64,000 nucleotides of DNA. Origin: an uncultured Porphyromonadaceae bacterium. Lineage in GTDB: Bacteria > Bacteroidota > Bacteroidia > Bacteroidales > Muribaculaceae. Positions 15,484 to 20,328 of this stretch are shown here, piece by piece. Under the pieces are notes generated by a model. The model saw nothing but the letters and a program-made list of their open reading frames with translations, was not told the origin of the DNA and searched no databases. The stretch lies in NCBI GenBank assembly GCA_947176295.1, contig CAMWQB010000002.1, positions 1-64,000 on the forward strand, read 5' to 3'. Made by a program: the position numbers and the translations under genes. Every line of letters begins with the position of its first letter. Position 1 is the stretch's first letter.

Positions 15484-17139
15484 ATGAGTATGGCTTTATC
15501 TTTCCGACTAAATTCTTTTATGGTGCTTGTGTTGCTCGGACTTTTCGGGGCGACCGGGCTTTTCTCCTGCAAAGAAAACGGCGACTACAAACGGCTGCTT
15601 CATGCCGAAGCAATTTTAGATTCTATGCCGGATTCGGCTCGGAGTTTGCTTAGTGGCATTTCCTATGATAAACTGAACAATAGGTCCAGAGCCTTATATA
15701 CATTGGTCGATGCAGAAATAAAATATAAATCATTCGTAATTTCCACAGAAGATTCCCTACTAAGAATAGCGGCAAATACATTTGATAAGCTTGGAGACAA
15801 AGATCGATTGATGCGTACTTTGTTTCAAATGTCTCTAAATGAATATTATGCGCTGGACTATGCTGAGGCAATTCTTTCTGCAACAGAGGCAATGCATCTT
15901 GCAAATGAGCTTAATTCACATTTATACATTGCCAGAACATGTGAGCAAGTGGCTACACTTTATAACAATAACTTCAATTTCGAGGATGCACTACCATACA
16001 TATTGCGCACCATAGAGGAGTATAAACTGGCTGGGAAAGAAAGGAATTTGGAATATGCGACTGTTGACAAGGCTTCTATTCTTCGCAATTTGAAACGCTA
16101 TGACGAGGCTCTCGGAGTATTAGACAGTCTGTCAAACATTATATCATCATCGAATTCCGATTCATCGCTAATCCGCTACTCTTCATACGCCAAACTCGAT
16201 TTACTCACCTTAAAGAACGATCCAAAACGAGTTCGGGCCATTGCGGATTCCATCATGCGTTTTACTGGTCCTTCCTCACACGTAGATGCCAAATATTTTA
16301 TAAGCGCAAGGGTTACTTGTGGCGACTTGGATGAAGCTAAAAGGATAATAGATTCGCTCCGTCGCCATCAACCATCATGGGACAGACAGGCTCGAATACT
16401 AAAGGGCATAATCGATTATAATATCGCTATTGGACATACAGATTCGGCCCTTGAATATTCAAACATGATGATTGATTTACAGCAAGATGGAATTTCGAGA
16501 GTTTTCAACGGAGGGTTGCAGAAGGCTCAGGTAAGTCATCTTTCAACGAAATATGCTCTGGCCCAGGAGCATAACTCCGCTATGCGAGTAGTATTTTTTT
16601 CGGTGGCTCTATCACTTATATTTATAATAGGTGTGATCGGATATGTCTTCAGGTTAAGGATGAAAAGACAAAAAGAAATTATCGATAATAAAATGGGTGA
16701 AATTTCGGAGCTTTTCAGCTCCCAAAACACCCGCTTGGCACACCTATTTTCAAATCGTGTAGAAATAATCAATGGTATATGCGAACGATACTTCACGGAA
16801 AAAGGCGTGAAAGATGTAATGCGAGCTAAATTATATAGGGAGGTATGCGGAGAATTGAAAAAGCTTAATTCTACGGAAAGCGTCGAAGAGATTGTTCGAT
16901 TTCTGAATGATACTCGAAATAATATTGTCATGAAACTCGATGAAATTCCCGGCATAAAGGATACTTCGCGGATCGTGGCAATATTTTCCATCTTAGGCTT
17001 GACACCCAAGGCCGTGTCGATATTATGTGAAATCAGTGCATCGAATGTATACACGCTGCGCTCCAGACTAAAAGATCTAATAGAAACTTCGGATTCGAAA
17101 AACAAGCGGGAACTTATCGGAGCATTAAGTCTGAAATGA
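15484..17139 (+). CDS. Membrane-anchored TPR regulator with C-terminal LuxR-like HTH (Bacteroidetes DUF6377-like)
   Basis: N-terminal signal/lipobox, TPR-like helices, single TM (VVFFSVALSLIFIIGVIGYVFRL), C-terminal LGLTPKAVSILCEISASNVYTLRSRLKDLI. Confidence 0.75.
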   Translation: MSMALSFRLNSFMVLVLLGLFGATGLFSCKENGDYKRLLHAEAILDSMPDSARSLLSGISYDKLNNRSRALYTLVDAEIKYKSFVISTEDSLLRIAANTFDKLGDKDRLMRTLFQMSLNEYYALDYAEAILSATEAMHLANELNSHLYIARTCEQVATLYNNNFNFEDALPYILRTIEEYKLAGKERNLEYATVDKASILRNLKRYDEALGVLDSLSNIISSSNSDSSLIRYSSYAKLDLLTLKNDPKRVRAIADSIMRFTGPSSHVDAKYFISARVTCGDLDEAKRIIDSLRRHQPSWDRQARILKGIIDYNIAIGHTDSALEYSNMMIDLQQDGISRVFNGGLQKAQVSHLSTKYALAQEHNSAMRVVFFSVALSLIFIIGVIGYVFRLRMKRQKEIIDNKMGEISELFSSQNTRLAHLFSNRVEIINGICERYFTEKGVKDVMRAKLYREVCGELKKLNSTESVEEIVRFLNDTRNNIVMKLDEIPGIKDTSRIVAIFSILGLTPKAVSILCEISASNVYTLRSRLKDLIETSDSKNKRELIGALSLK

Positions 17140-17147
17140 TCAATTTA

Positions 17148-17270
17148 TTCTTACATAACATCATTGTAAGAGCACAAAAGTCGATGTAAGAAACTTTTTA
17201 AAAAATACAGCTTATTATCAACACGATATTAAAACGATGTAAGAAAATGTAAGAAGCAAATTTCTTGCAA
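17148..17270 (+). repeat. Cluster of ATGTAAGAA repeats upstream of the DUF3244/C10/serpin operon
   Basis: Inverted TTCTTACAT 17148; ATTGTAAGA 17163; ATGTAAGAA 17184, 17237, 17247; near-inverted TTCTTGCAA 17262. Confidence 0.8.
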
Positions 17271-17287
17271 ATTCACTGATGTAGCAC

Positions 17288-17295
17288 TAACTTTG
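17288..17295 (+). promoter_or_regulatory. -7 box of protease/serpin operon
   Basis: TAACTTTG ~34 nt upstream of ATG 17329. Confidence 0.6.
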
Positions 17296-17328: not shown

Positions 17329-17712
17329 ATGAAAAAATCTTTACTATTAATTATTGTACTTTTTTTACTTAATCCAAGCTTAATAAGTGCCGACGAACCC
17401 AAACCTACCCCTCCACCCCTCCCCCCCGGTGAAGTGGTAATTCTGCCAATAGATCCACCAGGAAAACCACGCTCGCAATGTAATCTTTATAATATCAGTG
17501 CATATATTGATTCGTCATGTCTAACAATATTTTTTGACTCGCCTGAAGGCATGGTGAATTTTACAATCATAGATGCCAATAGAGAAATCTTCCATGAAGG
17601 TATCTACACTTCATGTGAGCCAATATTCATTGACTTATCCTCGGTAGAAGCGCCTTTGGAAATACGAATTTCCACAAGCGAAGGCAATGAATACGAAGGG
17701 TGGATAGAATAA
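17329..17712 (+). CDS. Small secreted protein, DUF3244-like (possible C10 protease inhibitor/partner)
   Basis: Signal peptide, Pro-rich linker, beta-rich ~80 aa domain; directly upstream of C10 peptidase. Confidence 0.6.
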   Translation: MKKSLLLIIVLFLLNPSLISADEPKPTPPPLPPGEVVILPIDPPGKPRSQCNLYNISAYIDSSCLTIFFDSPEGMVNFTIIDANREIFHEGIYTSCEPIFIDLSSVEAPLEIRISTSEGNEYEGWIE

Positions 17713-17746: not shown

Positions 17747-19021
17747 ATGAAAAAAATTTTAATCTTGTCCACTATAGGAATTCTAATGGGGGCTTGTGCT
17801 AATGATGAACCGGCACATGAGGCGTTTGATCATGAGGCTGAAAACAAAACAGGAGTAGAGGCTATTTTAATGAGCTCTGATGAAGCGATTGAAATAGCAG
17901 AAAAGAGCTATGCCAACTTCTATGGCAAACTTAGAACCCCAAAATCCAGAGACAGCTATTCAAAACCGGTTGCAATAACTCAAACTCATTCTCGTGCAAC
18001 AGAAGGGGATACTATCGCGTATATAGTGAACTTCCCGAATAATGAAGGGTATGCTATAATCCGAGCATTTAAAAATTCCATGTCACCGGTGTTAGCAGTT
18101 GTTGAAGACGGATTTCTCGGAGGAATCGACGAAATAACAGTTCCTGCTCAGAAGGAATATATCCAAACGATGCTTAGCACCAATGATATAGCTACAAATG
18201 ACGTTATTTCGCGGGGCGGATCAGCAGTAATTACACCGGTTACTGAAGAAAAATATGAAATTGACACTTTATATAGCCATAGATATGGCGTAGTCAGCGA
18301 ATTAAAGTGGGGCCAAGGAAGCGCGTTCGGAGCATATTGCGATAATGGATTATGCGGATGTTTCCCTCTCGCCACCCTATTTGTCATGGCTCATTATGAA
18401 GAAGCGGCTGAAATGAAAATAAACTTTACAAACAAAAAAGCACCTTCTGTAAACACAGTGATCCATCCCGATTGGAAGAATATCAAGAGGTACGGAAAGC
18501 CATACGATGGATATTGGAACATGCCGACACAAGAATCTATTACCAATATCGGACTTATAGCCCGACAAATAGGAGCATATGCAAAATCGGAATATAAAGG
18601 ATGGGACGGAGGCAAAGACACAACTACCTCTACCAGCGAGTCGAACGCTATAGCAGCTTTAAAGACAATATTCCCTCAAAAATCGGTAAGCGGATGGAGC
18701 AGCTACGATAAAACAGGAATAGCCGAAGGGTTGAAGTACGCACCGGTTATCATGAGTGGCCAAGGTTCTGCCGGCGGACACGCCTGGGTAGCAGAAGCTT
18801 ACGAACATTCACAGGTACAAGTAAAATATTACACAAGAGAGTACATGCATCTATTCTGGACCTTAGTTAGTACGACTTATCGAGAAGAAGAATATATGTA
18901 TTTCAACTGGGGATGGTACGGAACCGGCGATGGCTATTATAATGTAAGGTTTGCTGAATCCTTTACTCCGTCCGGGACGCATACGGAATATAAGAAATTA
19001 AAATACGTTACTATAAAATAA
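17747..19021 (+). CDS. C10-family (streptopain-like) cysteine peptidase with Spi-type propeptide, lipoprotein
   Basis: Lipobox LMGAC; propeptide AYIVNFPNNEGYAIIRA; catalytic KWGQGSAFGAYCDNGLCGCFPLATLFVMAHYE and GGHAWVAEAYE; NWGWYGTGDGYY. Confidence 0.88.
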   Translation: MKKILILSTIGILMGACANDEPAHEAFDHEAENKTGVEAILMSSDEAIEIAEKSYANFYGKLRTPKSRDSYSKPVAITQTHSRATEGDTIAYIVNFPNNEGYAIIRAFKNSMSPVLAVVEDGFLGGIDEITVPAQKEYIQTMLSTNDIATNDVISRGGSAVITPVTEEKYEIDTLYSHRYGVVSELKWGQGSAFGAYCDNGLCGCFPLATLFVMAHYEEAAEMKINFTNKKAPSVNTVIHPDWKNIKRYGKPYDGYWNMPTQESITNIGLIARQIGAYAKSEYKGWDGGKDTTTSTSESNAIAALKTIFPQKSVSGWSSYDKTGIAEGLKYAPVIMSGQGSAGGHAWVAEAYEHSQVQVKYYTREYMHLFWTLVSTTYREEEYMYFNWGWYGTGDGYYNVRFAESFTPSGTHTEYKKLKYVTIK

Positions 19022-19068: not shown

Positions 19069-20328
19069 ATGAGAAACATTTTAGTTGGAGCTATTGCTCT
19101 TGGGAGTATGATTTGCACTTCTTGCTCTGAAGAGGGTGGAGGCAATCAGCGGAAGGATATTCCGGTGTCGCGCACGGAGGCAGAAATCGTGGCGCTGAAC
19201 AATGAGTTTTCGCAGAAGGTTGTGTCGGCTCTCCGCTCGGGGGCCGAGGGGTTGAACGGCAATTTTGTGATGTCGCCGCTGAGCCTGTCGATGGATATGA
19301 GCATGCTTGCCGCCGGCACGGGCGGAGAATCGCAGGCTGAGATTTTGCGCGCGATGGGCTACGAGGCCGAAAATGCAGCTGAGGTGAATGCACTGAACCG
19401 GAAACTGATGTCGGAGCTTCCAAAGGCCGACAGAAAGACGACGGTATCGCTGGCGAACTGCATGTGGTATTCGCAGGCACATGGTTCGACGGTGAAGGAC
19501 AGCTATAAGGAGGTGTTGTCGACGTACTATTCGGCGCCACTTACGGGAGTTGCCGACCTTGGCGGCGAGGAAGGCCGCACGGCCATAAACAAATGGGCGA
19601 AGCAGAGCACGTCGGGGATGATTCCCGAGTTCCTGAGCGTCCCTCTCGGGGCCAATACGGTGATGGCTCTGACGAATGCCACGTACTTCAAGGGCGAATG
19701 GGCAAAGAAATTCGACAAGCAGAACACGACTAAGGAAGTGTTCCACAACGAGGACGGGACTTTTGCCCGCGTGAACATGATGAAGAACAGCGACCTGAAC
19801 ATCCAGGCCTACTACGATGGCGAGGCGGGGTATTCGCTTGCACTGCTCGACTACGGCAACAAGGCATACTGCATGGCAATAATCCTTCCTGACAAGGGCA
19901 AGAGTGCGGCCGAGATATACTCGTCGATGAACATGAGCGACCTTCAGGAATACATGATGACGCCTTCGCTACTGAAAACGCACCTCAACTTCGCGATGCC
20001 TCGCTTCGAACTCGAATCGTTCATCGGCTTCATTCCTGCGCTGAAGGCTCTGGGCGTGCACTCGATCTTCACAGAGGGTGGCGACTACTCGGGGATGTTC
20101 GCGCATGACATATCGGGCTTCTACATCGACAGGATTCTCCAGGGCACAAAGCTTGTGGTGAACGAAGAAGGCACAGAGGCAGCCTCGAGTACTGTAATAA
20201 GCAACGGCCTGACGTCGCCCGGTCCGGTTCAGACTAAGAACTTCATCGTGGACCGTCCGTTTGCCTTCGCTATCGGCGAACGCTCGACGGGAGCAATTCT
20301 TTTCAATGGAGTAATAGAACAGCTTTAG
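19069..20328 (+). CDS. Serpin-family protease inhibitor, predicted surface lipoprotein
   Basis: NATYFKGEWAKKFD, hinge VVNEEGTEAASST, C-terminal DRPFAFAIGERSTGAILFNGVI; N-terminus ...CTSCSEEGGG. Confidence 0.95.
   Translation: MRNILVGAIALGSMICTSCSEEGGGNQRKDIPVSRTEAEIVALNNEFSQKVVSALRSGAEGLNGNFVMSPLSLSMDMSMLAAGTGGESQAEILRAMGYEAENAAEVNALNRKLMSELPKADRKTTVSLANCMWYSQAHGSTVKDSYKEVLSTYYSAPLTGVADLGGEEGRTAINKWAKQSTSGMIPEFLSVPLGANTVMALTNATYFKGEWAKKFDKQNTTKEVFHNEDGTFARVNMMKNSDLNIQAYYDGEAGYSLALLDYGNKAYCMAIILPDKGKSAAEIYSSMNMSDLQEYMMTPSLLKTHLNFAMPRFELESFIGFIPALKALGVHSIFTEGGDYSGMFAHDISGFYIDRILQGTKLVVNEEGTEAASSTVISNGLTSPGPVQTKNFIVDRPFAFAIGERSTGAILFNGVIEQL

Follow-up and report, generated by a model that had tools for sequence, protein, structure and literature searches.

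Repeated words upstream of a C10 protease/serpin operon as the probable operator of an adjacent membrane-spanning regulator, and the operator design of its family

The window is the whole 64,000-nucleotide stretch of DNA analysed here. It contains a cluster of short repeated words between the gene of a membrane-spanning regulator and an operon for a DUF3244 protein, a C10 protease, and a serpin. These words are quite probably the operator of the adjacent regulator and would form a dedicated activator operator-promoter for the operon. The preliminary description had proposed a single operator and its probable binder. The larger finding is an operator design shared across the regulator family, in which a regulator-specific word keeps set distances to a common box and to the promoter. 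This design is most likely previously undescribed and is widely repeated. Sequence comparison brings out the clustering, the conserved spacing, the box, the distance to the promoter, and a word that follows the helix type. In the literature searched, with subscription journals mostly outside it, no paper describes a shared operator design, and no binding site or regulon is described for the regulator family.

The putative operator copies of the window are:

17148 to 17156, minus strand: outermost copy, TTCTTACAT, an exact match (ATGTAAGAA on the minus strand)
17163 to 17171, plus strand: copy ATTGTAAGA, with the core TGTAAGA at 17165 to 17171, paired with the minus-strand copy
17184 to 17192, plus strand: copy A, ATGTAAGAA, 53 bp from copy C and 63 bp from copy C'
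17237 to 17245, plus strand: copy C, ATGTAAGAA, 51 bp from the -7 box (the family standard), or 53 bp if the count starts at the extended repeat CGATGTAAGAAA
17247 to 17255, plus strand: copy C', ATGTAAGAA, one turn downstream of C

The clustered repeats of the preliminary description are genuine. The exact copies were found again, and 4 of the 9 exact occurrences of ATGTAAGAA in the whole genome (2.23 Mb, 138 contigs) lie inside 108 bp of the window, which is beyond chance. The backwards-read control of the word occurs 14 times in the genome, so ATGTAAGAA has no general over-representation there. The spaced pair TGTAAGA-N41..70-TGTAAGA is found genome-wide only in the window's intergenic region. 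A chance cluster in AT-rich DNA would agree with the count for the window as a whole when one mismatch is allowed (9 matches vs. 7.7 expected, no enrichment). Against it stand the 4 of 9 exact copies and the recurrence of the design at independent loci; this explanation is already refuted and keeps practically no probability. A genus search for the tandem word pair returned the window and one near match only.

The TGTAAGA cores start at 17165, 17185, 17238, and 17248, giving core-to-core offsets of 20, 53, and 10 bp, or 1.90, 5.05, and 0.95 turns. Offsets of 21, 53, and 10 bp had been reported before. The last two hold, whereas the first came from comparing out-of-register starts (ATTGTAAGA vs. 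ATGTAAGAA) and becomes 20 once the core is kept in register. Helical phasing is thereby weaker for the first copy; at family level, the preferred spacings of 53 and 63-65 bp support it as a trend. Cooperative binding would fit these spacings. An inverted copy B, facing A and placed just downstream of it, is common, not universal, in the family; in the window, no minus-strand word lies between A and C.

Directly upstream of the words is the regulator gene, with these features:

15484 to 17139, plus strand: regulator of 551 aa, with an N-terminal hydrophobic/lipobox segment, a TPR solenoid, a transmembrane segment in a long helix, and a C-terminal HTH
16573 to 16644, plus strand: predicted transmembrane segment (residues ~364-387), a hydrophobic stretch inside model helix 345-439
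16960 to 17088, plus strand: C-terminal HTH (residues ~493-535), recognition helix ...SASNVYTLRSRL..., based on the model helices and the family alignment

Pfam matches of the regulator to TPR are weak. Its AlphaFold2 (AF2) model (mean pLDDT 84.9, pTM 0.63) has a TPR solenoid at residues 33-341, a single long helix at 345-439, and HTH helices at 493-504, 508-515, and 519-535. The best Foldseek match of the model is 1hz4 (MalT domain III), and other matches include NprR and Rap TPR-sensor chains. MalT-type and RRNPP (NprR, Rap) sensors use a TPR solenoid as the signal sensor, as in the window regulator. MalT and NprR also bind DNA. Unlike in these systems, the window sensor is predicted to be extracytoplasmic and joined via a transmembrane helix to the C-terminal HTH. 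Membrane one-component regulators of the ToxR/VtrA type (co-component systems, PMC9214523) are likewise membrane-spanning transcription factors in fast-evolving cassettes. Their sensor fold differs from that of the window regulator, and no co-component partner was found at the window. The term 'DUF6377-like', used for the regulator before, applies in a loose sense only: PF19904 is hit weakly by 6 of 22 family members and not at all by the window protein.

Relatives of the regulator are diverged but common, occurring in 38 of 49 genomes of the genus. A search of the host family with a 22-row alignment found regulators in 122 of 148 sampled genomes, often several per genome. Outside the family, a search of 295 other genomes of the order with a stricter cut-off found them less often, in 27. 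A GTDB scan with the regulator gave no relative, and no direct orthologues turned up for a footprinting set. In the other genomes of the genus, the best match shares 29% identity with it and has TGTAGAA repeats. In many family members, a DUF3244 gene comes next, ~200-240 bp on.

The operon downstream of the words is composed of three genes:

17329 to 17712, plus strand: small secreted DUF3244 protein of 127 aa, a candidate staphostatin-like inhibitor
17747 to 19021, plus strand: C10 peptidase (PF01640, E=1.9e-15) with an Inhibitor_I69 pro-domain (PF13734, E=1.2e-6)
19069 to 20328, plus strand: serpin (PF00079, E=7.5e-80)

The PF01640 match of the peptidase, at 58.1 bits, is above the gathering score of 26. 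The DUF3244 product matches PF11589 (E=4.9e-5) at 23.7 bits, just below the 25-bit cut-off, and a PDB sequence search with it gave no match. In the accessible text of PMC3462683, BT2221/BtiZ is staphostatin-like and associated with C10 proteases, and that of PMC10434189 gives it a DUF3244 annotation. The Bacteroides bfp/bfi and btp/bti operons resemble the window in that C10 genes are linked to small secreted inhibitor genes; the same accessible text names no dedicated regulator or operator for them (PMC3462683), whereas the window operon is preceded by a TPR-HTH regulator and additionally carries a serpin.

The comparison set was made up of ~90 intergenic regions adjoining relatives of the window's TPR/transmembrane/HTH regulator. 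Most of these regions carry their own repeated word, e.g., TGTAGAA in L044, GTGCACAAAA in L045, GTGAACAGA in L058 and L020, TGTGAGGCAA in L024, AGGTGGTGGAAA in L072, and ATGTAACGCC in L025. The repeats reach significance individually in some family regions, not all. The window likewise has a repeated, regulator-specific word adjoining the regulator gene.

Spacing of the words is conserved across the family. Among 62 non-redundant regions, direct repeats form a sharp peak at 63-65 bp, with 30 counted where dinucleotide shuffles predict 3.3, and a second, lower peak lies at 53 bp (5 vs. 1.1 expected). In 29 regions unused before, the 63-65 bp spacing was again in excess (13 vs. 1.1 expected, p=2e-10). 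Natural controls are richer in G+C than the test regions (42% vs. 31%), so the shuffles serve as the main control; in these natural controls, 63-65 bp spacings occur in 3 of 57 unrelated intergenic regions vs. 42 of 93 test regions, and 53 bp spacings in 1 of 57 vs. 7 of 93. Spacings of 58-60 and 68-70 bp show no clear excess in family regions. With 53 bp from 17184 to 17237, the window falls into the 53-bp class, and the extra copy C' adds a 63-bp pair (17184 to 17247). Tandems of 10-11 bp like C/C' are also observed in L156 and L266.

RNA structure, a terminator, or an invertible element would be a very improbable source of the repeats. Such an origin could draw on the long inverted repeats of several sister regions and on a 7-bp inverted pair at 17149-17171 in the window. 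The sites lie upstream of the promoter and are thus outside the leader transcript. A hairpin also fails to explain direct copies at a fixed 53 or 63-65 bp and at a fixed distance to the -7 box. No recombinase gene is seen nearby, and the words differ between loci.

The promoter elements of the window are:

17265 to 17267, plus strand: -33 element TTG, inside TTTCTTGCAAA, assigned by the family promoter profile
17288 to 17295, plus strand: -7 element TAACTTTG (family profile TAwnTTTGC)

When 67 family regions were aligned on TAnnTTTG, an AT tract emerged and TTG clustered 21-25 bp ahead of the first base of that box. In the window, TTG and TAnnTTTG are ~20 bp apart, matching the Bacteroidota -33/-7 promoter, and nothing sets the window promoter apart from an ordinary one of this type. 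This promoter type, together with the protein families, would place the source in Bacteroidales. The sequence TTCTTGCAA at 17262, formerly read as an inverted operator half, is most likely a -33 promoter element in light of the 67 aligned promoters.

Copy C is placed relative to this promoter. In the family, its distance to the -7 box has a median of 51 bp (sd 2.3), with 24 of 26 regions within 49-55 bp. The distance to the ATG is far more variable (sd 24.6). Copy C of the window lies 51-53 bp before TAnnTTTG, inside the 49-55 bp range. Its fixed position upstream of -33 suggests an activator in contact with RNA polymerase. Repressor operators also show multiple copies and looping-type spacing, and copy C' stops 9 bp short of the -33 TTG. 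The adjacent regulator could accordingly bind and repress, with RNA polymerase blocked in the absence of a signal. Repression is rather unlikely, given a fixed copy upstream of -33, a near-constant 51 bp to -7 in the tabulated family members, and a window in which no copy overlaps the promoter.

A motif search of the family regions returned a constant box, yTGAwwATCArnnnnTTACrA (short form TGAwwATCArnnnnTTAC). In 6-fold cross-validation, 55 of 62 held-out regions reached at least 10 bits vs. 2.6% of shuffles. The same level was reached in 19 of 29 new regions vs. 3.1% of shuffles and in 3 of 57 natural controls. Where both were found, the box is mostly 23-30 bp before copy C, about 25. The window has one such element:

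17211 to 17232, plus strand: constant box CTTATTATCAACACGATATTAA, between copies A and C, a moderate match to the family box

It lies 24 bp from copy C and scores 8.5 bits, a level also reached by 5 of 57 control regions.

The IHF consensus is WATCAANNNNTTR, and IHF or HU may act at the constant box. The family box fits this consensus, which may not be that of the host lineage, and the window copy TATCAACACGATA lacks the fit to the TTR part. The box could then be an ordinary IHF/HU bend site between spaced copies, leaving the word and spacing as the only novelty; this has a real chance, clearly short of even. Against it, conservation continues into the flanking CTGA and takes in the C of TTAC. 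The strict box pattern is also unlike a general IHF site in that the window's genome has it at one place, the regulator/DUF3244 region of contig C74 beside a sister regulator. A general IHF site was considered for the box and is weakened by this rarity.

The word follows the type of the predicted recognition helix. Regulators with a K-x-K helix have at least two TGAGG words in 18 of 22 cases vs. 3 of 130 others (p=9e-17), often 64-65 bp apart, and those with an N-[VILC]-Y helix, the window's type, have at least two TGTAAG words in 9 of 16 cases vs. 4 of 136 others (p=7e-8), where both p-values ignore relatedness. The K-x-K rule also applied in set 2, which was retrieved later (2 of 2 vs. 0 of 29), and in set 3 (4 of 6 vs. 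0 of 9). Set 3 is not fully independent, since isoleucine entered the helix pattern once this set had been seen. The N-[VILC]-Y rule, framed after set 2 had been seen, gave 3 of 6 vs. 3 of 100 in set 1, which contains the window. A paralogue in the same genome, L041, has an N-[VILC]-Y helix without a TGTAAG word, and its gene is split. The overall Mantel correlation between HTH identity and word similarity was rejected as proof of a recognition code. It is confounded by relatedness (partial r of 0.09 given the N-terminal domain) and was replaced by the helix-class tests. On a tree built without the HTH, both traits changed several times in the same direction and almost never in opposite ones, with independent pairs too few for significance. 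The helix-word association is partly shared ancestry.

Comparison gives good support to the proposal that the words are an operator for the HTH protein directly upstream, since most sister regulators adjoin their own repeats and two helix types pair with two words. An unlinked transcription factor might instead bind the words, with the upstream HTH protein a mere neighbour. This is improbable. The operator assignment is drawn from sequence comparison, and TGTAAG-like words do occur in a few of the regions with regulators of other helix types than N-[VILC]-Y (4 of 136). An unlinked global factor would have other sites, however, and the genome has no second such spaced pair; the word also varies from cassette to cassette, tracking the recognition-helix type of the adjacent regulator.

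With the adjacent regulator as the binder, 17148-17295 would act as a dedicated operator-promoter. The TPR solenoid would sense something outside the cytoplasm, and the cytoplasmic HTH would bind the TGTAAGAA words, several copies of which are roughly on one DNA face. The promoter-proximal copy, ~51 bp before the -7 box, most likely serves to activate the -33/-7 promoter of the DUF3244/C10 peptidase/serpin operon. The shared box at 17211, between A and C, is probably a site of DNA bending or of binding by a common partner. Binding, activation rather than repression, cooperativity, a ligand, and the role of the box are what we infer from this arrangement.

At family level, there may be a large collection of membrane regulator/operator pairs that diversify fast and work independently of one another. 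In each pair, the regulator's word would fit into one invariant frame (the common box, a spacing of 53 or 64 bp, and 51 bp to -7), with a readable helix-word code and a shared architectural protein on the box. The chances of this broader proposal are nearly even, slightly on the lower side. Family regulators adjoin secreted protease/inhibitor and other small-protein cassettes. A common operator grammar would make regulator targets predictable from sequence alone and the helix-to-word recognition code testable. It might also supply regulator/promoter pairs that act independently of one another for use in Bacteroidales.

Two further cassettes were observed in the window's own genome (G000). In L041 (4364-5799, contig C33), the regulator paralogue is split into two ORFs and a serpin paralogue follows directly. 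The intergenic region retains TTGATTATCAG and has no clear repeated word, which together with the split gene suggests decay. In L043 (2812-4787, contig C74), the regulator is followed by DUF3244, then by a 69-aa ORF resembling a lipoprotein-precursor N-terminus and another lipoprotein ORF. The C10 peptidase may have been lost or truncated there.

Elsewhere in the family, ORFs judged by eye to resemble peptide-modifying (radical SAM type) enzymes replace the C10 peptidase in L058 (4234-5854), L045 (8175-8999), and L056 (404-1690). L058 also encodes a Cys-rich small protein of 79 aa with a GG motif, assigned by eye as like a modified-peptide precursor. Near-perfect inverted repeats of 30-45 bp span the constant box and the specific word in the intergenic regions of L163, L072, and L016. 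Shorter regulators (~350 aa) with another N-terminus and an HTH of the same type are found in L028, L201, L214, and L218, some of which have TGAGG-type words downstream and other neighbours.
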